Assembly (NCBI GenBank): GCA_020850355.1
Contig: JADZEX010000010.1
Coordinates: 1-64,000 of the forward strand
Reading direction: 5' to 3'
Length of the DNA: 64,000 bases
From: Fimbriimonadaceae bacterium
GTDB lineage: Bacteria > Armatimonadota > UBA10988
Under the pieces are notes generated by a model. It made no database searches. It was not told where the DNA came from and saw only the letters and a program-made list of their open reading frames with translations. Below are positions 1,473 to 17,931 of this stretch, one piece after another. The number at the start of each line of letters is the position of its first letter. Positions within the stretch are counted from its first letter, which is position 1. The position numbers were made by a program, and so were the translations under genes.

Positions 1473-3008
1473 ATGCGAGAGGTCTGGATCTGGGCGACGA
1501 GCCTGCTGCTGGCGCCGCTGGCGCAGGCGGCGCCGGGCGCGATCGTGGTCTGGGAGATGCAGGATCCGCGCGCTGCAACCGCGACCGTGGATCTGGCGGC
1601 GCACTGTCTGGAGCTGGACGGCAAACCGCGCTGGGGCACTGGCGATGGGGCCCGGATGGTCGCCAACAGCGACTGGCTCGAGCGCCAGGCAGTCAGCGTC
1701 AGCGACGGTGCCGGCGGCTGCATCGTGGTCTTCGAGATGAGCGACGGCAAGGGCGACGACGCCATCGCCGCGCAGCGCCTGGCGGCCGATGGCAAGCCGC
1801 TCTGGAACCGCGGCGAGAGCAGCGTGCTGGTCGCCAACAGCCGCTGGCGTGAGAGCCGGCCGCAGGTCGTCAGCGACGGCGCCGGCGGCGTGCTGGTGCT
1901 CTTTCAGTGTGAATCCGAAGACGGCGACCAGGACATTCGCGGGCAGCGCTTGAACGCCGATGGCGAGCTGCTCTGGGAAGAGGGCAAGGCCAGCACCGAA
2001 GTGGCCTACAGCAAGATGCTGGAGCGCAACCCGCGGGCGGTGCCCGACGGCGCTGGCGGCGCGGTGGTGGTGTTCGAGTACGAGGCCGCCGAGGGCGAGC
2101 ACGCCGGCGACACCGAGATCGCGGCGCAACGGGTGTCGGGTGACGGCAAGCTGCTCTGGGAGGACGGCAAGCGCGCCGTGGCGGTCTGCAGCAGCAACTG
2201 GATCGAGCGCGAGCCGGTGGTGGTCGCCGACGGCCAGGGCGGCGCGACGGTGGTCTGCGAGGTCAGCCAGCTCGCCGACCCGAAGGCCGACCGGGTGATC
2301 GTCGCACAGCGGCTCACCGCCGACGGCGAGCTGGCCTGGGAGGGCGGCAGGATGTCCGTGGCGGTCGCCGACAGTGCGGCCAGCGAGCGACGCCCGCGCG
2401 CCGTCGGTGACGGCGCTGGTGGGGTGATCATCGTCTACGACGCGGTGCAGACCCGCAACGGCGCGGCGACCGGCGAGGTCGACCTCGGTGCGGCGCGGCT
2501 CAGCGCGGCGGGCAAGATGCTCTGGGGCAGCGCCCGCGAGCCGCTGCAGGTGGTCGCGGGCAGCACGATCGACCGCTCCGCCGAACTGCTCTCCGACGGC
2601 CGCGGCGGCTGCTTCGTGGCCTGGGAGCGGGCCGTCAACAGCGGCGCGCGGGCCGGCGACAGCGACCTCTATGTGCAGCGTCTGAGCAGCGCCGGGAAGC
2701 TCACGTGGAGCGCCGGCAAGCCGGTCCTGGTGGCCGGCAGCGCCAACCTCGAGCGGCGTCCGAAGCTCTGCAGCGACGGCGCTGGCGGGCTGCTGCTGGC
2801 TTTCGAGAGCGAAGGCCGGAGCGGCGCGGCGAAGGGCGACAGCCAGGTCGCGGCGCAACGGGTCGACGCCACCGGCAAGCTGCTCTGGGGCCAGGGCCAG
2901 CCGGTACTGATCGGCCAGGGAGCCTGGCGCGACCAGCGCCCCCAGCCGCTGCTGTCCGGCGGTGGGAGCGGCGCCGGTGGACTGGGCGGGATCCGCATCA
3001 GTCTCTAG
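1473..3008 (+). CDS. Secreted protein with eight beta-propeller-like repeats
   Basis: A 511-residue protein with a signal peptide (hydrophobic stretch after MREVWIW, Ala-rich cleavage region at about 20) followed almost entirely by 55-65-residue repeats. Each repeat carries a DGAGG turn, a strand of the type VVFE, AQRL, an ADGKLLW segment and a closing ER.P. Seven clear repeats are flanked by a half-repeat at the N-terminus (strand and GKPRW without the DGAGG turn) and a degenerate one at the C-terminus (GAGG and a final strand). This is the arrangement of a propeller closed by its two ends, which would give eight blades. No catalytic motif was recognised; a binding or surface role is an inference. 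The start is preceded by a GAG-rich binding site, and the gene stands alone. Confidence 0.7.
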   Translation: MREVWIWATSLLLAPLAQAAPGAIVVWEMQDPRAATATVDLAAHCLELDGKPRWGTGDGARMVANSDWLERQAVSVSDGAGGCIVVFEMSDGKGDDAIAAQRLAADGKPLWNRGESSVLVANSRWRESRPQVVSDGAGGVLVLFQCESEDGDQDIRGQRLNADGELLWEEGKASTEVAYSKMLERNPRAVPDGAGGAVVVFEYEAAEGEHAGDTEIAAQRVSGDGKLLWEDGKRAVAVCSSNWIEREPVVVADGQGGATVVCEVSQLADPKADRVIVAQRLTADGELAWEGGRMSVAVADSAASERRPRAVGDGAGGVIIVYDAVQTRNGAATGEVDLGAARLSAAGKMLWGSAREPLQVVAGSTIDRSAELLSDGRGGCFVAWERAVNSGARAGDSDLYVQRLSSAGKLTWSAGKPVLVAGSANLERRPKLCSDGAGGLLLAFESEGRSGAAKGDSQVAAQRVDATGKLLWGQGQPVLIGQGAWRDQRPQPLLSGGGSGAGGLGGIRISL

Positions 3009-3064: not shown

Positions 3065-4951
3065 CTAAGGCGCGTCGAGCAGCTCCAGGCGCAGATCGTC
3101 CAGCAGCAGGTCGACGCTCCGCTCGCCCTCCAGGCCGCCCCGCTCAATCGCCAGGTCGCCCGCCGCGCCGCGCAGCGGCACCTCGAAGACGCGGTCGAAG
3201 CGCTGCCAGGTCCCTGACTGGCGCAGATCGTAGGGCGCGGCGTTGAAGTTGTCGATCCACTTGCCGTCGGCGGCGTTGACGCCGACCTTGACGTACGGTG
3301 CCTTGGCCGGCTCGACCCGCTCGACGCGCATCCAGCCGCTCAGTCGGTAGCGCGCCGCCGGCTGCAGCGGCACGGGCAGGCGGAGGTGACCGTAGTTCCA
3401 GGTGTTGCGACAGGTCCCGGTCAGTCGCAAGGCGCGCTGGCTGTCGTGGCCGCCCGCCGCCATGCTGACCTGGGTGCCCGTGGCAGCGGCCCAGCCGGCG
3501 GCCTCGCCGGTCTCGAAGTCGGTCTGCCAGACCACCCCGCCGACCGCCGTCGAGAGGTGCAGCTCGACCTCGCCGAGTGGGTAGCGTCCCGCCGCATCGC
3601 GGCCCGCCAGGCCGAGTTGGATCACCCGCCCGGTCTCGGGCCAGACCATGCTGACCAGCAGACGGTAGGTTCCAGCTGGCGTTCCCGGCGGGAGCACGAG
3701 GCGGTGCATCTGCTCCTGGCTGGCGCCCGGATCCCAGCGCGTGGTCGGCGTCGGGGGGTACTGCAGGTCGCTGCTGACCACCTCGCCCGCCGCGTTCACC
3801 AGCAGCATCGTGACCGCGTAGCTGCCATGACTCCACGCGATCCCGTCGTTGCGCCAGAAGCTCCGCACCACCAGCCGACCCGGCAGCGTCGCGCTGACCC
3901 GGCCGGCCGCCGGGAGCTCGACCCCGGTCACGACAAAGCGGTAGCCGATCCGGCGGGCCGCGTCGAGCAGCATCTCGCGCGCCTCGGGGGGCGCCTTGCG
4001 GTAGCCGGCCCCACCGAAGAGGTTGCTGTTGAGGTAGGCAATCGGCGAGGCCAGCGCCTTGGCGAAGGTCGTGGGGACGTCCCAGCCGTTCTGCTGCATC
4101 GCGCTCCAACCGCTGTGGAACTCCAGATTGCAGAGCGTCCCGCGCGGGGCGTAGGTCGGGTAGAGCTTGCTCTCGACGTTGTAGCTGGCACCGTCGTGCT
4201 TCAGGCCATCCTGCCGCAGGTGCATCCCCCGCGCGGCGGCGTAGTCGTTGATGCTGAGCCGCTCCGGGCCGCCCACGTTGAGGAAGACCGGAGTCCGCGG
4301 GAAGGCCTTCGCGTAGTCGTCGATCATCCGGCGGTAGGCCGCCACATAGCCGGCGTCGGTGTACCCGGTGGCGTCGAAGTCGGCCTGCGTCCAGCGTGCC
4401 AGGTGCATTTCACCCCACTCGCCGATGCCGCCAAGGTCGACAAACTCGAGGCCCTCGCGACCGTCCAGCCAGGCGCCCAGCTTGGCGATGAACTCGGCCT
4501 GCAGCTCGAGGTAGCGCTGGTTCCAGAACGCCGGGTTGACCTGCCGCGGGACGGACAGCCCGACATGCTCGACCCCCGGTACGCCGGCGTCGAAGACCCA
4601 CTTCGGCGTGACGTACTCCTTGTTGCCGTGCATCGACTGGCTCATCACCCGGAAGGCGACCCGCTTGCGGTGCTGCTTGACCCAGACGTCGAACAGCGGG
4701 CCGAGGAACTCGTCGAAGCGGTAGACGCCCGGCTCGGGGTTGACGTCGCACCAGTGCAGCCGGAAGTAGGCGATGTCGCTGAGGCCCATGAACCACTCGT
4801 CTGGCTTGGCGTCGAGCGGCGGGTACTGCAGGTAGACGCCCATGAAGGGGTTCTGCAGCACCTCGTTGGAGAGCTGCGGCGTCAGTTGCCGTGGCTCGGG
4901 CGTCGTCGGGGCTTGCAGCAGCGACAGGCTCAACAGCAGCGCAACAGGCAT
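3065..4951 (-). CDS. Secreted DUF4832-type putative glycoside hydrolase
   Basis: A 628-residue protein with a short signal peptide (MPVALLLSLSLLQA) and an N-terminal domain opening with NPFMGVYLQYPP, the start typical of DUF4832 proteins (TIM-barrel, related to beta-galactosidase-like clans). A block with FVDLGGIGEWGEMH at about residues 205-220 places conserved Glu residues where such barrels carry catalytic acids. Residues beyond about 470 (VVWQTDFETGEAAGW onward) form a jelly-roll carbohydrate-binding-like domain ending in LLLDDLRLELL. ATG at 4951 is chosen because it begins the signal peptide; the longer open frame upstream does not look coding. It is divergent from the GH172 gene 98 bp away, suggesting a shared glycan substrate. 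The substrate is unknown. Confidence 0.7.
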   Translation of the reverse strand: MPVALLLSLSLLQAPTTPEPRQLTPQLSNEVLQNPFMGVYLQYPPLDAKPDEWFMGLSDIAYFRLHWCDVNPEPGVYRFDEFLGPLFDVWVKQHRKRVAFRVMSQSMHGNKEYVTPKWVFDAGVPGVEHVGLSVPRQVNPAFWNQRYLELQAEFIAKLGAWLDGREGLEFVDLGGIGEWGEMHLARWTQADFDATGYTDAGYVAAYRRMIDDYAKAFPRTPVFLNVGGPERLSINDYAAARGMHLRQDGLKHDGASYNVESKLYPTYAPRGTLCNLEFHSGWSAMQQNGWDVPTTFAKALASPIAYLNSNLFGGAGYRKAPPEAREMLLDAARRIGYRFVVTGVELPAAGRVSATLPGRLVVRSFWRNDGIAWSHGSYAVTMLLVNAAGEVVSSDLQYPPTPTTRWDPGASQEQMHRLVLPPGTPAGTYRLLVSMVWPETGRVIQLGLAGRDAAGRYPLGEVELHLSTAVGGVVWQTDFETGEAAGWAAATGTQVSMAAGGHDSQRALRLTGTCRNTWNYGHLRLPVPLQPAARYRLSGWMRVERVEPAKAPYVKVGVNAADGKWIDNFNAAPYDLRQSGTWQRFDRVFEVPLRGAAGDLAIERGGLEGERSVDLLLDDLRLELLDAP

Positions 4952-5049
4952 CGGGGTCTCCGGCTGGCCCCCGCTTCGGCCGGCGGCCGGCGACTCCTGC
5001 CGGCAGGGCTGCCGCCCAGGCTGGCGAAGCAGCCGCGCGGGAGCGAGCG

Positions 5050-6129
<1,080 letters not shown>

Positions 6130-6172: not shown

Positions 6173-8233
6173 CTACGGCGTGACCACGATCTCCAGCGAG
6201 CGCCCCGTCGAGATGCTGACGAAGCCACCGTTTGCATCCTCGGCCCGGTCAGAGGCCGACAAGCTCAGTACCCACCGGCCAGGGACGGTCGGCAGGGACA
6301 CCTGTCCCGAATACGTGGCGCTACTGCCCTGGCGGGCCATGGTCGTCGTGACGCCACCCAGCGTGGCGAACACCCGACCGGCGTAGGCGCCCAGTTGCGG
6401 CTGTTGACGCGCCGCGAAGTTCGCATCTGCGCTGACCGTCAGGGTGCTGGCGCCGCCGAGGCTGAGTTCGGTGAAGACATCGAAGAACGAGTCGACCCGG
6501 GTCCCCCCCACCAGAACGTTGCCCAACTGCGGCGCCGCCGGCTGGGCGAGACCGTGATAGGCACTGCCGCCACGGTCAAACTGCGTCCACTCGACCAGGC
6601 GCTCCGCCGTGATCTGCCCACTGTCGCCAACGGGCAGGATCTCCAGCCACCGGGTGAACTGCTGATCGGAGAGGATCGGCACGACATTGTCGGCGGTCAG
6701 CCGTCGGTGGCCGGAGAAGCGGAAGCCGTCGCCGTGCCGTGCAATGCTGTCAACCGTCTGGGTCGTGATCACCAGGTCGTTCGAGGGATGAGTCATCTCC
6801 TGGTGTGTACTGCCATTGTAGTTGTAGCGCGGATCGTAGAGCGGCCCCAGCAAGATGGGGTCACCGGCCAGGCGGGCGAGCCGCAGACGTTCGATCAGAT
6901 CAAGCACGAAGAGCGGCACGGGCGGTGGCGCCCCACTGAACCCACCCCTCTTGGGTTCACCAGGTCGCGGCCACCGGTCGTTGCCGGGATCATCGCGCTC
7001 CATGTCCGTCTTCCAGGCCGGCTCGGGATCCTCTGGCGTCAACCCAGCCGCTTCGCAGATCTTCTCGATGATCTCGTCGGCAGTGAGTTCCAGCCCGGCC
7101 ATGCCGGCTTCCACCTCGGCCAGCGTGACGACTCCATCCGCATTGGCCAACTCTAGCGCCTCCTGCATCTGCATCAGGGCGCACTTCAGACCAATCGTGT
7201 CTGGTGCTGAATACGATGGGTGTGTGGCGTCGGAGTCCGTGAACCAATGCACAGCCTTGTCGGTCTGAGCGTCCCATTGATCAAAGACCGGGACCATGTT
7301 GCCGCCGTAGCAGGCGGCATTGAAGATGTTGATGTGGCCTGCTGTCACGTTCTCGTTCAAGAGCTGGCACAGCTCTTCATAGGTCAGTCGATCACGGCCA
7401 ATCTGGACTCGTGAGTTTGGCGGCGCAGAGCCGTGCGTGGCCAGCACCAGAAAGTACTTGTCGTTGGCACCGAGACCCGTTGAGGTAGACCTGAGACGCG
7501 CGGCGAACTCGGCCCGACCGAAGCGGTCAGGGTGACGGTCCCAGAGCACCGACAGCGGGTTCGCCTGGCCGGTCAGCTCCTGCAGGTACTCCGCAGTGTT
7601 GTCAATATCGCCCTGGCGCCGGGCCTCTTCGGAGCAGACGATCAGCGCACCTGCCGCGGACCCGGCCAGCGGTAGCCTGGTCCGCTCGTCCTCCGGCTCC
7701 AACAGGTCGGCGAAGTCCCCATGAATGTAGACCAGATTTGCCAGCCGGTCAGCCTCGGCCAAAAGCCGGTCTTCACCATCCAAGACCGGCCAGGATCGGA
7801 CGGAGCGAACAAAGATGGCGCCATCGCTTGGGCGCACGAACAGCAGGGCGCCAAGATGCTCAAAGTTGGCGAGCAGATTGAGATCGGCAAAGAAGGTGTA
7901 GAAGCTATCATTCAGGATATAATCCTGATCCTCAAAGAACGCCCGTAGATGGGCGCCACGGGGCAGGGGAGTGTCCTGCAGCGAGAAGACGCCGATGGCA
8001 GGATCGTCACCAGTGCCGTACCGGGGTTCGTTCTGTCTGGCTGCCGCGAGTCCGACGTACTGGCGGAGGACGCGCGTCGCGGCGTCCGCGGCATCGGCCA
8101 CCGGACCGCTGCCCGCGAGAACCTCGGTTGAGGGATCCGCCGTGGCCGGTGTCCCGCCGCCTCCACAGCCCAACAGCCCGGCACACAGCAAGTGCAGCAA
8201 CGTCACGGCGCAGCAGCGCCAGATCCGAGCCAT
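6173..8233 (-). CDS. Lipoprotein with caspase-like (clan CD) peptidase domain
   Basis: A 686-residue predicted lipoprotein: signal peptide with lipobox LLGC followed by a Gly run. The central domain has the two catalytic blocks of clan CD cysteine peptidases (caspase, legumain, clostripain type): a hydrophobic strand then ATHGS with His267, and INIFNAACYGGN with Cys308, 41 residues apart. The next segment, NADGVVTLAEVEAG, resembles a calcium-binding EF-hand or dockerin loop, followed by a second acidic helix. Residues beyond about 590 look like an immunoglobulin-like beta domain (VPGRWVLSLSASDRAEDANGG). A likely role is a cell-surface or periplasmic peptidase; the specificity pocket cannot be assigned. 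The ATG at 8233 has a GAGGGAGAG site. Third-position GC is lower than in neighbouring genes, hinting at a different history. Confidence 0.7.
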   Translation of the reverse strand: MARIWRCCAVTLLHLLCAGLLGCGGGGTPATADPSTEVLAGSGPVADAADAATRVLRQYVGLAAARQNEPRYGTGDDPAIGVFSLQDTPLPRGAHLRAFFEDQDYILNDSFYTFFADLNLLANFEHLGALLFVRPSDGAIFVRSVRSWPVLDGEDRLLAEADRLANLVYIHGDFADLLEPEDERTRLPLAGSAAGALIVCSEEARRQGDIDNTAEYLQELTGQANPLSVLWDRHPDRFGRAEFAARLRSTSTGLGANDKYFLVLATHGSAPPNSRVQIGRDRLTYEELCQLLNENVTAGHINIFNAACYGGNMVPVFDQWDAQTDKAVHWFTDSDATHPSYSAPDTIGLKCALMQMQEALELANADGVVTLAEVEAGMAGLELTADEIIEKICEAAGLTPEDPEPAWKTDMERDDPGNDRWPRPGEPKRGGFSGAPPPVPLFVLDLIERLRLARLAGDPILLGPLYDPRYNYNGSTHQEMTHPSNDLVITTQTVDSIARHGDGFRFSGHRRLTADNVVPILSDQQFTRWLEILPVGDSGQITAERLVEWTQFDRGGSAYHGLAQPAAPQLGNVLVGGTRVDSFFDVFTELSLGGASTLTVSADANFAARQQPQLGAYAGRVFATLGGVTTTMARQGSSATYSGQVSLPTVPGRWVLSLSASDRAEDANGGFVSISTGRSLEIVVTP

Positions 8234-8356
8234 GGGTCTCTCCCTCTGTGGAGTTCTGGGTAGGTAACTCCAACTTTGGCAGGGTACCCAGTGCAACGAC
8301 CCAAGTCAAGTTGGCTCGACCGTTAGATCTTGCGGTGGCATGACGAGACCCGCAGT

Positions 8357-8421: not shown

Positions 8422-9372
8422 CTACCTGGTCGGCTTGGTGACCACGTTGACCCCGCTGGCGGTGCCGGCGTTGTTGGTCGGCGCGGCCGCCAGGATGGCT
8501 TCCAGGGTGACCCCCGCCTTGACCTCGGCCGAGGTGGCGGTCTGACCGTCCTTGGCGTACTTGGTGTTGGCGGTCACGCGGATGGTCAGGTCGGGCGGCG
8601 TGGTCTGGCCGCTCGGCGCGGTCGGCGCCTGCAGCACGAACGAAGCCAGCGCGCTGTTGGTGGTGGTCACGCTCTTGACCTTGCCGACCGCCTTGAACGG
8701 CAGCACCTGCACCGCCACGGCGGTCGCCTTGTTGTCCACCGGCGGCGCGGCCAGCACGGCTTCGACCGCCAGCCCGACCTTGACGTCGTCGGCCTTGGCC
8801 TCTTTGTCACCCGCCTGGTACTTCGTCGAACTGCTCACGCTGACCGTCACGTCGGCCGGCTGGGTCTGCCCGGCCGGCGCCTGCGGCGTGACCACGAACG
8901 AGGTCAGGCTGCCGCTGGCGGGCGTGCGGCTCTGGATCTTCCCGGCGACCATCGGCGGCAGCACCTTGACCGCCTTGGCGGTGCCCTTGTTGTTAGCCAG
9001 TTTGGCGGCCAGGGTCACCTCGACGGGCAGTCCCACTTTGAGGTCGGCGGCCGTCAGTGCTTTGTCGCCGGCCCGGTAGGTGGTGTCCTTGGTGACACTG
9101 ATGGTGGCGGCCGCTGGCTTGCTGCTCTGCCCGGGAGCCGGCTTCGGCTCCAGCACGAACGCGGAGAGGCTGCTGCCGCTGCCGGTCAGGCTCTTGATCC
9201 GCCCGCCGACGAGCAACTCGATGCCCGTCCCGCCGCCCGAGGCCCCGCCCGGCCGCTGCGCGGCGCGCGTCTCGCCGCTGTCGATCATCCCACCACCGCC
9301 GCCGCAGCCGCTGAGGGCCAGGCCCAGCAGCCAGCCCAGACTCCAGATCGCCGTCCACACGGTGCGCTTCAT
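8422..9372 (-). CDS. Lipoprotein with three DUF5666-like repeats
   Basis: A 316-residue predicted lipoprotein (signal peptide, lipobox LSGC, Gly-rich linker). After the linker come three tandem repeats of about 80 residues, each with the order GxIxS, SFVL/V, a DVTVSVS-T-Y strand, GDK, an ADLKVGLxVE block and an NKGTAxAVxVLP close. This is the pattern of DUF5666 domains, small beta-barrels of unknown function found in surface lipoproteins. The strong repeat similarity suggests internal duplication. The start has a GGAGG site 5 nt away. It is transcribed with its own hairpin terminator and is 188 bp from the next gene. No enzymatic function is proposed. Confidence 0.7.
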   Translation of the reverse strand: MKRTVWTAIWSLGWLLGLALSGCGGGGGMIDSGETRAAQRPGGASGGGTGIELLVGGRIKSLTGSGSSLSAFVLEPKPAPGQSSKPAAATISVTKDTTYRAGDKALTAADLKVGLPVEVTLAAKLANNKGTAKAVKVLPPMVAGKIQSRTPASGSLTSFVVTPQAPAGQTQPADVTVSVSSSTKYQAGDKEAKADDVKVGLAVEAVLAAPPVDNKATAVAVQVLPFKAVGKVKSVTTTNSALASFVLQAPTAPSGQTTPPDLTIRVTANTKYAKDGQTATSAEVKAGVTLEAILAAAPTNNAGTASGVNVVTKPTR

Positions 9373-13991: not shown

Positions 13992-14699
13992 CTACTCCGG
14001 CAGCACCATCCGATAACCGACGCCCTGCTCCGTGAGGATCCACTGCGGGCGGGCCGGCTCCGGCTCCAGCTTCTTGCGGAGGTTGGCGATGTAGACGCGC
14101 AGGTAGTGCGTCTCCTGTTGGCAGTGCGGTCCCCAGACCTCCCGCAGCAGCGAGCGATGGGTGATCACCCGTCCGGCGTGGCGCAGGAGGGCTTCCAGTA
14201 GCGCAAACTCGTGCCGGGTGAGCTTGACGAGTTGCCCGTCGCGCAGGATGCGGCGGGTGGTGAGGTCGATCTGGACGTTGCCCAGGCGGTACTCGACAGT
14301 GGTGCCGCCGGCGCCGGGGGTACGGTGGCGGAGGGCGACCCGCAGCCTAGCCAACAACTCGCCGACGCCGAAGGGCTTCGTGAGGTAGTCGTCGGCGCCC
14401 GCGTCGAGGGCCTCGATCTTGTCGTCCTCCTGGTCGCGCGCCGAGAGCACCACGATGGGCACCGCGGACCAGAGGCGAACCTCCCGGATCAGCTCCAGGC
14501 CGTCGCGGTCGGGCAAGCCCAGATCCAGCACTGCGACGTCGGGCGGCTCCTGCTCCAGGAGCCGTTGCGCGTCACGGGCGGTGGCGGCCTCGCGCACGCG
14601 ATACCCCGCCGCCAGCAACGCGGCGCGGACGAACCGCCGGATCGGCAGCTCGTCCTCAATCACCGCGACCAGCGCCGGGTTGAGCGGTTGCTTAGACAT
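13992..14699 (-). CDS. kdpE: KdpE response regulator
   Basis: A 235-residue OmpR/PhoB-family regulator. The receiver has the acidic pair in VIEDE, phosphoacceptor Asp in VLDLGLPDRDG, and Lys in TKPFGVGELLAR. The winged-helix DNA-binding domain shows LTRHEFALLEALLRHAGRV and the closing GVGYRM. Last gene of the kdpFABCDE operon; its ATG overlaps the end of kdpD by 8 bp. KdpE activates kdp transcription at low potassium or high ionic strength after phosphorylation by KdpD. Length and motifs are those of a functional regulator. Confidence 0.95.
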   Translation of the reverse strand: MSKQPLNPALVAVIEDELPIRRFVRAALLAAGYRVREAATARDAQRLLEQEPPDVAVLDLGLPDRDGLELIREVRLWSAVPIVVLSARDQEDDKIEALDAGADDYLTKPFGVGELLARLRVALRHRTPGAGGTTVEYRLGNVQIDLTTRRILRDGQLVKLTRHEFALLEALLRHAGRVITHRSLLREVWGPHCQQETHYLRVYIANLRKKLEPEPARPQWILTEQGVGYRMVLPE

Positions 14700-17370
14700 C
14701 GTCGTCCTCGGGCGGCACGTCCGGCGGCAGCGCCGGCTGGGGCAGCAGCAGCTCGAAACAGGCCCCGCCAGCCGGCCGGTTGGAGACGCTCAGGCTGCCC
14801 CCATGGGCGACCGCGACGGCTCGACAGATGGCCAGTCCGAGACCGCTGCCGCGGCTCTCGGCGCGCGCCTGCGCCCCGCGGGCGAAGGTCTCGAAGATGC
14901 GTTCGCGGTCTTCGTCCGGGACGCCAGGGCCGCAGTCGGTCACGGTCAGGCGAAGCTCCCCGGCGCGCCGGCAGCCCGCCAGCTCAAGGCTGCTGCCGGG
15001 CGGCGTGTAGCGCGCGCAGTTGTCCAGCAGGTTGACCAGCAGCAGCTCCAGCAGCACCGCGTCGACTTCCACCAGGAGCATGTCCGGGCTGACCGCCACC
15101 GTGATGGACCGGCCCGCCAGGTGGCGTTCGGTGGCCCGCAAGGCGCTGCCGATCAGGTCCTCCAGCAGGTGCCACTCCCGGCGCAGCGCCAGCCCGGCCT
15201 CCAACTGCGTCAGCCGCAGCAGGTTGGTGACCAGCCGCGACAGCCGCTCGGCCTCGTCGTTGATGCTCTCGATCAGCAACCGTTGCTCGGCGGCGGGCGG
15301 CGGTGGCGTCTGCAACAGCGTGCTGCTGGCGCCGGCGATCGTCGCCAGCGGTGTGCGCAGGTCATGCGAGACGGAGGCCAGCAGGTTGCTGCGAAGTGCT
15401 TCGGTGCCGGCGGCCAGCCGGGCCGCCTCGGCGGCGGCGGCCAGCTCGACGCGTTCCAGGGCCAGGGCGATCTGGGTCGCACACGCCTCCAGCAACGAGC
15501 GCGGCTCGGGCAGCCAGGGGTACTGCGGGTCGTGGTGGGCGATCCCCAGCACGCCGTGGGTGGCTCCGCCGGCGGCCAGCGGCAGGTAGACCGCCTCCGC
15601 GGCCGGCAACGTGTCGGTCCCGCGGCCGGCGGGCCGGTCGTGGTCCAGCACCCACTGCGCCACCGCGACCTCGGCCGGGTCGGCCGGGAACTCGGCCGGG
15701 TGGTCGACCACGGGCCGCAGCCCCTGCGGCTTGCGCCGGAAGACCGCCACACGGCCGCCGCAGACCGCTCCGAGTTCGTCCTCGGCCGCCGACATCACGG
15801 CCAGCGGGTCGCCGGCCGTGGTCAGTCGCTGGGCCAGCCGGTAGAGCAGCTCGGCCCGGCGCTGGCCACGTTCGGCGCGTGCCGCTTGCGCCTTGGCGCG
15901 GGCTGTCAGTTCGGCAATCAGCAGCCCCACCGCCAGCATCACGCTGAACATGAAGAGGTACTGCGTATCGCTCACCGCCACGCTGAAGCGCGGCTCGATG
16001 AACAGCACATCGAACAGCAGCACCGCCAACACCGACGCGACGACCGCTGGCTGGCGGCCGCCCTGCACCGCCACCCAGACCACGGCGGCGAGGTAGAGCA
16101 TCACCAGATTGGCCTCGGCCAGGCCCAGGTGGAAGCACGCCAGGCCCAAGCCGGTGGCCGCCGCCAGGGCCAGCGCCGTCAACAGCCAGGCGCGCCAGCT
16201 CGGCTGGTCGGCGGCCCGCGCCCCGGTGGGCAGGTCGGCGGCCGCGCCATGCACCACCACAATATCGAGGTCGCCAGCCTGCGCCAGCAGCCGCTCGGTG
16301 AGGCCACTGCGGCCCCACCGCGCGGGCGGCGAGCTGCCGACCACCACCTTGGTGGCGTTGTGCCGCCGGGCGTAGGCCAGCACCGCGCCGACGAACTCGT
16401 CGCCCGGTTCGCTGGCCGTGGTGGCGCCGAGTCGCTCGGCAAGCTGCAGGTTGCGGACCAGGCCCGCGCGGGCGGCGTCGGGCAGCGGCCCGCTGTCGAC
16501 ATACAGGGCGGTCCAAGCGGCCCCCAAAGAATCGGCCAGCCGGCGGGCGGCCCGGATCACCTGACCGGAGCTCGGGCTGGGGCCGACGCAGACCACCAGT
16601 TGCTCCCGCGTCGGCCAGACGCTGGCGGTCGTCTGGCCGCGCCGGGCCAGTTCCACGGCCGCATGGACCTGGTCGGCTGCCAGCCGCAGCGCCAGCTCCC
16701 GCAGCGCCACCAGGTTGCCGCGCTGGAAGAAGTGCCGCAGCGCCTGCTCGGCCCGCTCCGGGACGTAGACCTTCCCTTCGCGCAGGCGCGCCAGCAGGTC
16801 ATCGGGCGGCAGGTCCACCAAGGCCAGCTCGACGGTCTCACCGAACAGCTCGTCCGGCACCGTCTCGCGGACCACCACGCCACTGATCTGCGCGACCACG
16901 TCGTTCAGCGACTCGACATGCTGCACGTTGCAGGTGGTGTGCACAGAGATCCCCGCGTCGAGCAGATCCTGCACGTCCTGCCACCGCTTGGCGTGGCGCA
17001 GCCCAGGCGGGTTGGTGTGGGGCAGCTCGTCGACCAGCACGACCTCCGGCCGCCGGAGCAGCACCGCCTCCAGGTCCAACTCGCGGAGGTGGCTGCCGTG
17101 GTGCGTCAGCGCCAGCACCGGGAGCTGCTCCAGGCCGTCCAACAGGGCTTCCGTCTCCGGCCGGCCGTGCGCCTCGAGGTAGCCGACCACCACATCGGCG
17201 CCCTCCGCCGCCAGACGACGCGCCTCTTGCAGCATTCGGTAGGTCTTGCCGACTCCAGCGGCGTAGCCGAGGTAGACCTTCAGCCGGCCACGCGCCGCGG
17301 CCGTCGGCTGCTCGGAGGCCAGGCGGGCGAGCATCGCCTCGGGTGTCGGCCGCTCGTGCTCACGGTTCAT
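14692..17370 (-). CDS. kdpD: KdpD sensor histidine kinase
   Basis: An 892-residue sensor. Order: N-terminal KdpD domain with Walker A GYAAGVGKT (about 35-45), universal-stress-protein-like domain (VCVGPSPSSGQVIRAARRLA), four closely spaced membrane segments (DUF4118), a GAF-like linker, then DHp (SVSHDLRTPLATI) and ATPase domain with N, G1 (DCGPGVPDEDRE) and G2 (GSGLGLAI) boxes. All catalytic motifs are present, so the kinase should be active. The ATG at 17370 overlaps the kdpC stop by 4 bp and immediately precedes the domain; the open frame continues antisense-like beyond it. It senses potassium or turgor and controls KdpE. Confidence 0.95.
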   Translation of the reverse strand: MNREHERPTPEAMLARLASEQPTAAARGRLKVYLGYAAGVGKTYRMLQEARRLAAEGADVVVGYLEAHGRPETEALLDGLEQLPVLALTHHGSHLRELDLEAVLLRRPEVVLVDELPHTNPPGLRHAKRWQDVQDLLDAGISVHTTCNVQHVESLNDVVAQISGVVVRETVPDELFGETVELALVDLPPDDLLARLREGKVYVPERAEQALRHFFQRGNLVALRELALRLAADQVHAAVELARRGQTTASVWPTREQLVVCVGPSPSSGQVIRAARRLADSLGAAWTALYVDSGPLPDAARAGLVRNLQLAERLGATTASEPGDEFVGAVLAYARRHNATKVVVGSSPPARWGRSGLTERLLAQAGDLDIVVVHGAAADLPTGARAADQPSWRAWLLTALALAAATGLGLACFHLGLAEANLVMLYLAAVVWVAVQGGRQPAVVASVLAVLLFDVLFIEPRFSVAVSDTQYLFMFSVMLAVGLLIAELTARAKAQAARAERGQRRAELLYRLAQRLTTAGDPLAVMSAAEDELGAVCGGRVAVFRRKPQGLRPVVDHPAEFPADPAEVAVAQWVLDHDRPAGRGTDTLPAAEAVYLPLAAGGATHGVLGIAHHDPQYPWLPEPRSLLEACATQIALALERVELAAAAEAARLAAGTEALRSNLLASVSHDLRTPLATIAGASSTLLQTPPPPAAEQRLLIESINDEAERLSRLVTNLLRLTQLEAGLALRREWHLLEDLIGSALRATERHLAGRSITVAVSPDMLLVEVDAVLLELLLVNLLDNCARYTPPGSSLELAGCRRAGELRLTVTDCGPGVPDEDRERIFETFARGAQARAESRGSGLGLAICRAVAVAHGGSLSVSNRPAGGACFELLLPQPALPPDVPPEDDDV

Positions 17371-17918
17371 GGCAGGGCATCCAACGCCAGATTCGCCTCC
17401 AAGACGTTCACCAGCCGCCGTGCCTCGCCGGGGATGCGCCTGCTCCGGTGCCGCACCAGGGCGGCGACCGCGGCGGCCGGCCGCTGGCGAGCGGCCGCGA
17501 TCCGCTCGACCTGGGCCAGCGCGCCTTCCAAGGTCAGGTCCGGGTCCAGACCTGACCCGGAGGCGGTCAGCAGTTCCGCCGGCACCGCCCGGCCCGCGCC
17601 GAGCCGCAGGGCACCCGCTCGCTCGGCGGCGGCGGCGCGGAGCTTGTCGCCGGCTGGCGAGAGGTTGCTGCCGACCGCCGCAGCCGCATTGTAATCCACC
17701 GCCGACGGCCGTGGCCACAGGTAGCGCGGGCTCCGGAACGGCTGCGCCAGCAGCCGGGACCCGATCACCGAGCCGTCCTCGCGCCGCAACAGGCTGCCGG
17801 CGGCCTGCTCCGGCGCTACTGCCTGGGCGATCGCCTGCACGGTCAGCGGGTAGGCCACCGCGCCGATTAGGATAGTGCACACAGCCAGGCGCAGCGAGCG
17901 CCCCAGTTCGGAAGCCAT
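17367..17918 (-). CDS. kdpC: KdpC subunit of the potassium-transporting ATPase
   Basis: A 183-residue subunit with one N-terminal membrane helix (LRLAVCTILIGAVAYPLTVQAIAQAV) and the conserved periplasmic part: LLRREDGSVIGSRLLAQPF, a YLWPRPSAVDYNAAAAVGSNLSP block and DPDLTLEGALAQVERIA. KdpC stabilises the KdpAB complex. The ATG at 17918 is chosen for a GAGG site 6 nt upstream; an ATG at 17930 would add four residues but has no site. It sits 13 bp after kdpB and overlaps kdpD by 4 bp. Confidence 0.95.
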   Translation of the reverse strand: MASELGRSLRLAVCTILIGAVAYPLTVQAIAQAVAPEQAAGSLLRREDGSVIGSRLLAQPFRSPRYLWPRPSAVDYNAAAAVGSNLSPAGDKLRAAAAERAGALRLGAGRAVPAELLTASGSGLDPDLTLEGALAQVERIAAARQRPAAAVAALVRHRSRRIPGEARRLVNVLEANLALDALP

Positions 17919-17931
17919 CGTCCACCTCATC

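Follow-up and report, generated by a model that had tools for sequence, protein, structure and literature searches.

A predicted lipoprotein with a probable, divergent clan CD cysteine peptidase domain and a decayed EF-hand loop in a Fimbriimonadaceae bacterium

The window analyzed here is a stretch of 64,000 nucleotides from a contig of a Fimbriimonadaceae bacterium (phylum Armatimonadota; GenBank assembly GCA_020850355.1, JADZEX010000010.1, positions 1 to 64,000, forward strand). Among its genes is one for a 686-aa predicted lipoprotein (Table 1), which is present once in the 6.67-Mb genome. The reading frame is interrupted by no internal stop and is genuine, and when we read the N terminus by eye we found the signal peptide with a lipobox Cys that characterizes bacterial lipoproteins, as the original prediction of a lipid-anchored protein had stated. 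The lipobox by itself would point to an envelope anchor only, so the surface location that had also been proposed is not demonstrated by it. The weaker GC bias ascribed to this gene also held, as its GC3 is 0.78 (overall GC 0.646) compared to 0.83-0.95 in the neighbors that were checked.

Table 1. Features of the 686-aa lipoprotein gene in the window.
Feature	Position	Strand	Basis or remark
Gene for 686-aa predicted lipoprotein with predicted clan CD peptidase domain	6173..8233	minus	686 codons plus stop, ATG start
Shine-Dalgarno-like element GAGGGAGA	8239..8246	minus	sequence; about 5 nt upstream of the ATG
Signal peptide and lipobox LLG-C23, residues 1-23	8165..8233	minus	read by eye; LLGC kept in the homologue
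N-terminal conserved region, residues 44-184, FxDxxxxANFEH...VRPSDGAxFV	7682..8104	minus	no Pfam match; resembles WLFWVDDMPGARFAHP in L020/L021
Predicted clan CD/C13-like catalytic core, residues ~195-360	7154..7651	minus	Pfam, MAFFT, hhalign, model, Foldseek
Codon of His267, predicted dyad histidine, after beta-3	7433..7435	minus	homologue, clan CD HG alignment, model
Codon of Cys308, predicted nucleophile, after beta-4	7310..7312	minus	homologue, clan CD Cys alignment, model
Degenerate EF-hand loop LANADGVVTLAE, residues 362-373	7115..7150	minus	aligned with intact clan CD EF-hand loops
C-terminal region, residues ~575-686, putative Ig-like	6176..6511	minus	call of the original prediction

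Several neighboring genes were also noted. Just upstream, on the same strand and across a 188-bp gap, lies a gene for a lipoprotein-like DUF5666 repeat protein (8422-9372, minus), and KdpE-like and KdpD-like regulator genes were recognized by eye at 13992-17925 (minus). On the other side are a gene with a DUF2961 domain (4891-6129, plus; E 4e-99), a gene with DUF4832 and a CBM_4_9 carbohydrate-binding domain (3065-5059, minus), and a gene for a 511-aa exported protein built of repeated units of about 50 residues (SDGAGG..VVFE...AQRL.ADGKLLW), for which there was no significant Pfam match (1473-3008, plus). The DUF2961 and DUF4832/CBM_4_9 neighbors suggest a carbohydrate-related region, a context that is not shared with the locus of the homologue described below.

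Among the 291 genomes of the phylum, we found a clear homologue of the lipoprotein in only one other genome (G002), which belongs to the same family but another genus. The two proteins share 46% identity across residues 8-448 and diverge in the C-terminal third, and the homologue keeps the lipobox, THGSAPP, His267 and the Gly that follows it, and Cys308 and the Ala that precedes it. The sequence around the cysteine, GACFGG in the homologue, gives the pair a common (A/G)AC(Y/F)GG motif. By eye, the neighbors of the homologue encode a BNR-like protein and a ceramidase-like protein, which differ from the DUF2961, DUF4832, and DUF5666 neighbors in the window, so the gene context is not conserved, and no clue to a substrate was found in neighboring or co-conserved genes.

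Other candidate relatives were set aside. An apparent third homologue (L004) from a scan of GTDB contigs proved to be the G002/L002 contig itself and was rejected; a weak match in a further genome (L003 in G053) is apparently due to chance and falls in an off-frame of a sugar-nucleotide gene; the remaining weak matches in the phylum cover signal peptides or short tails, and the NCBIfam "invert_tail" match covers the signal peptide only. Whole-protein scans with Pfam, NCBIfam, and PADLOC returned nothing relevant, sequence searches of the PDB gave no match, and no relatives were found in the plasmids, phages, and viral contigs searched.

The original prediction was that His267 (in ATHGS) and Cys308 (in NAACYGG), which are spaced 41 residues apart, form a clan CD-type dyad. 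When the cores were excised from the lipoprotein and its homologue, the sole Pfam family matched by either was PF01650 (Peptidase_C13), with alignments that span the dyad, whereas neither core matched PF00656 (C14) with E values as high as 10. Against PF01650, the E values were 0.017 and 0.022 (15.1 and 14.7 bits) for two cuts of the lipoprotein core and 0.098 and 0.051 (12.6 and 13.5 bits) for two of the homologue core, and all of these scores lie beneath the curated cut-off of 22.8 bits. The family comparison thus came out in favor of C13, although under the cut-off, and gave no link to C14. Using hhalign, we then compared a profile of the two cores to 23 clan CD open frames, which had been taken from a PF01650 search of the phylum, and to 40 other open frames at these loci. 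This profile separated the two sets with an AUC of 0.94, and clan CD proteins took all of the top ten places, while the AUC was 0.57 for the reversed profile and 0.50, 0.65, and 0.69 for shuffled ones; probabilities for single pairs were below 6%. In a MAFFT alignment, His267, Cys308, and the loop at the EF-hand position all lined up with the equivalent positions of 18 clan CD proteins. Both predicted catalytic residues are conserved on the basis of one independent homologue.

Structure models agree with this assignment. Since the subfamily has only two sequences in our data, the confidence of the models is low to modest: AlphaFold gave a pLDDT of 32 for residues 44-445 with the two-sequence alignment, and a pLDDT of 59 with a pTM of 0.63 for the core alone (residues 184-385). 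Even so, practically all of the top 50 PDB matches that Foldseek returned for the low-confidence longer model were caspases or legumains (best E 5e-3). The core model runs beta1-alpha-beta2-alpha-beta3(His)-hairpin-alpha-beta4(Cys)-alpha-beta5-alpha, which is the clan CD order, and its best Foldseek match was Arabidopsis metacaspase 9 (E 6e-4), followed by plant and human legumains, CED-3, and caspases, with the first match from outside clan CD at rank 17. In clan CD enzymes, the His lies on loop L3 and the Cys on loop L4 (PMC4357240), and the model agrees with this published layout, as it places His267 directly after beta-3 and Cys308 directly after beta-4. A His-Gly that follows beta-3 and an Ala-Cys that follows beta-4, as predicted here, are the arrangement of the caspase-haemoglobinase fold. 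The clan CD dyad is thus supported by its conservation, by the profile comparison, by the order of strands and helices, and by the fold search. Going by the strand order of the model and by the one homologue, neither of the outcomes that the original prediction named as refuting it, a wide separation of the two residues in the fold or a lack of conservation, was seen.

A clan CD fold could also serve as a binding or scaffold domain without peptidase activity, with the dyad kept by chance in two sequences. Pseudo-orthocaspases do occur in bacteria (PMC6426788), and with only two known members of the subfamily, conservation of the dyad is weakly sampled. However, the two proteins, which are 44-52% identical overall, have both preserved His-Gly and Ala-Cys, motifs that one would expect to erode in a pseudo-enzyme, and we consider this reading unlikely. 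The lipoprotein is probably active as a peptidase.

The original prediction further held that an EF-hand-like acidic loop follows the core and that calcium controls the enzyme. An EF-hand loop is expected to carry acidic ligands at positions 1, 3, 5, and 12, of which the first should be Asp. The loop, LANADGVVTLAE (Leu362 to Glu373), has Leu in place of Asp at position 1 but keeps Asn at position 3, Asp at position 5, Gly at position 6, and Glu at position 12. We found no strict EF-hand pattern anywhere in the lipoprotein and no EF-hand match in Pfam, and the equivalent loop of the homologue, ARAGGGGVSLAQ, has none of the calcium ligands. MAFFT nevertheless aligns the loop on DTNGDGKISVRE (L015), DANGNGKVSIVE (L026), DANSDGWFSAEE (L039), and DADGNGVVSFQE (L043), and a strict EF-hand loop is found 57-95 residues past the catalytic Cys in 16 of the 23 clan CD open frames of the phylum (L015, L017, L020-L026, L028, L029, L033, L034, L039, L041, and L043), as against 0.013 expected from shuffling, in a set that includes some close mutual relatives. 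Since it aligns with intact loops, yet has lost key ligands, we regard the loop as homologous to real EF-hand loops but decayed: its position was correctly recognized, while the calcium control ascribed to it was not supported.

A calcium-controlled surface peptidase, whose catalytic domain would be turned on by calcium bound to loop 362-373, is accordingly very unlikely. This reading draws on the position of the loop at the intact EF-hand site of related clan CD proteins, on the Asn, Asp, Gly, and Glu that it keeps, and on the calcium dependence known for C11 enzymes (PMC4357240) and reported for metacaspases (PMC6426788), but it is at odds with the Leu at position 1, with the lack of a strict EF-hand in the protein, and with a homologue loop that has no acidic ligand. 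Since key ligands are lost, activity is probably not calcium-controlled via the loop, though calcium may bind at another site. Hardly credible at all is a chance occurrence of HG and AC in a domain of some other alpha/beta fold: every single-sequence comparison does score beneath accepted cut-offs, but several comparisons converge on clan CD, and the hhalign controls abolish the signal.

The regions on either side of the core yielded less. The stretch FFADLNLLANFEHLGALLFVRPSDGAIFV ahead of the core resembles WLFWVDDMPGARFAHPTRIVVLD of L020/L021, at a nearly equal distance to HG; in L020/L021, this is a conserved unit about 137-140 residues ahead of HG. The lipoprotein/homologue pair and the L020/L021 pair are collinear over 289 columns in hhalign, at a probability of 0.4% (P 0.17), and because this is not significant, we treat the N-terminal resemblance as a lead only; the lipoprotein was not recovered when a profile of L020/L021 served as the search query. 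Going by the shared pattern, the N-terminal unit may be an unnamed accessory domain. At the other end, where an Ig-like domain had been proposed, residues 362-686 had no Pfam match at E<=10, and residues ~575-686 are not conserved in the homologue, so that the domain was not confirmed.

Together, these findings make it quite probable that the protein is an exported, lipid-anchored, divergent clan CD cysteine peptidase nearest to C13 and not calcium-controlled via its loop. We infer its export, location, and proteolytic activity, along with the nature of its substrates, as follows. Cys23 would anchor the exported lipoprotein, whose middle third would form the divergent clan CD cysteine peptidase domain. 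There, His267 would activate the Cys308 thiolate, with both residues on loops after the neighboring parallel strands beta-3 and beta-4, and the dyad would cleave peptide bonds in envelope or extracellular proteins. The EF-hand remnant past the core has lost key calcium ligands, and activity would probably not be controlled by calcium via this loop. It is conceivable, if doubtful, that the two proteins represent a clan CD subfamily of their own, to date seen in a single Armatimonadota family, that is lipid-anchored, has its own N-terminal domain, and descends from ancestors that bound calcium but whose EF-hand loop was later lost, with activity now independent of calcium.

The lipoprotein would thus be an unannotated, below-threshold addition to the bacterial clan CD peptidases. 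From one sequence, a peptidase followed by an EF-hand seems a new layout, and it had been put forward as such. In fact, it recurs at a fixed site past the core in the phylum, with an Ig-like match as well in L020/L021, and published work describes archaeal orthocaspases that bear EF-hand motifs and Big_7 domains, which are bacterial Ig-like domains (PMC6426788). Since many related bacterial proteases carry the EF-hand loop, the layout is not new, and in the 686-aa lipoprotein it has decayed. Through the recurrent loop, a connection of bacterial caspase-like enzymes to calcium could readily be tested.

Compared to known systems, the lipoprotein resembles C14 peptidases and orthocaspases (PF00656) in its predicted fold class and in the placement of the dyad, and the C14/orthocaspase-related protein L039 combines an EF-hand loop with PKD domains. 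Unlike C14 proteins, the lipoprotein lacks a Pfam C14 match and identified p10 features. The likeness to C13 (PF01650), the family of legumain, GPI8, and bacterial C13 proteins, is closer in that HG(S) and AC lie about 41 residues apart (40-41 in the C13-match proteins L015-L017), PF01650 is the sole Pfam family matched by either core, and legumains rank near the top in Foldseek. On the other hand, the protein scores 15.1 bits against the required 22.8, so it is not a formal C13 member, and it is a lipoprotein with an N-terminal region of its own. In human legumain, the asparaginyl S1 pocket is formed by Arg44, His45, Ser216, and Asp231 (PMC4357240). L020 and L021 belong to a different family of the phylum and match both C13 and C14 above the cut-offs. 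They differ from the lipoprotein in their intact loop (DRNGDGFVSFRE) and in an N-terminal Ig-like Big_1 match, which is below the cut-off, and pairwise similarity is not significant. They share with it a lipoprotein signal (read by eye), a FxDxxxxAxFxH unit about 140 residues before HG, a clan CD core, and an EF-hand position just past that core.
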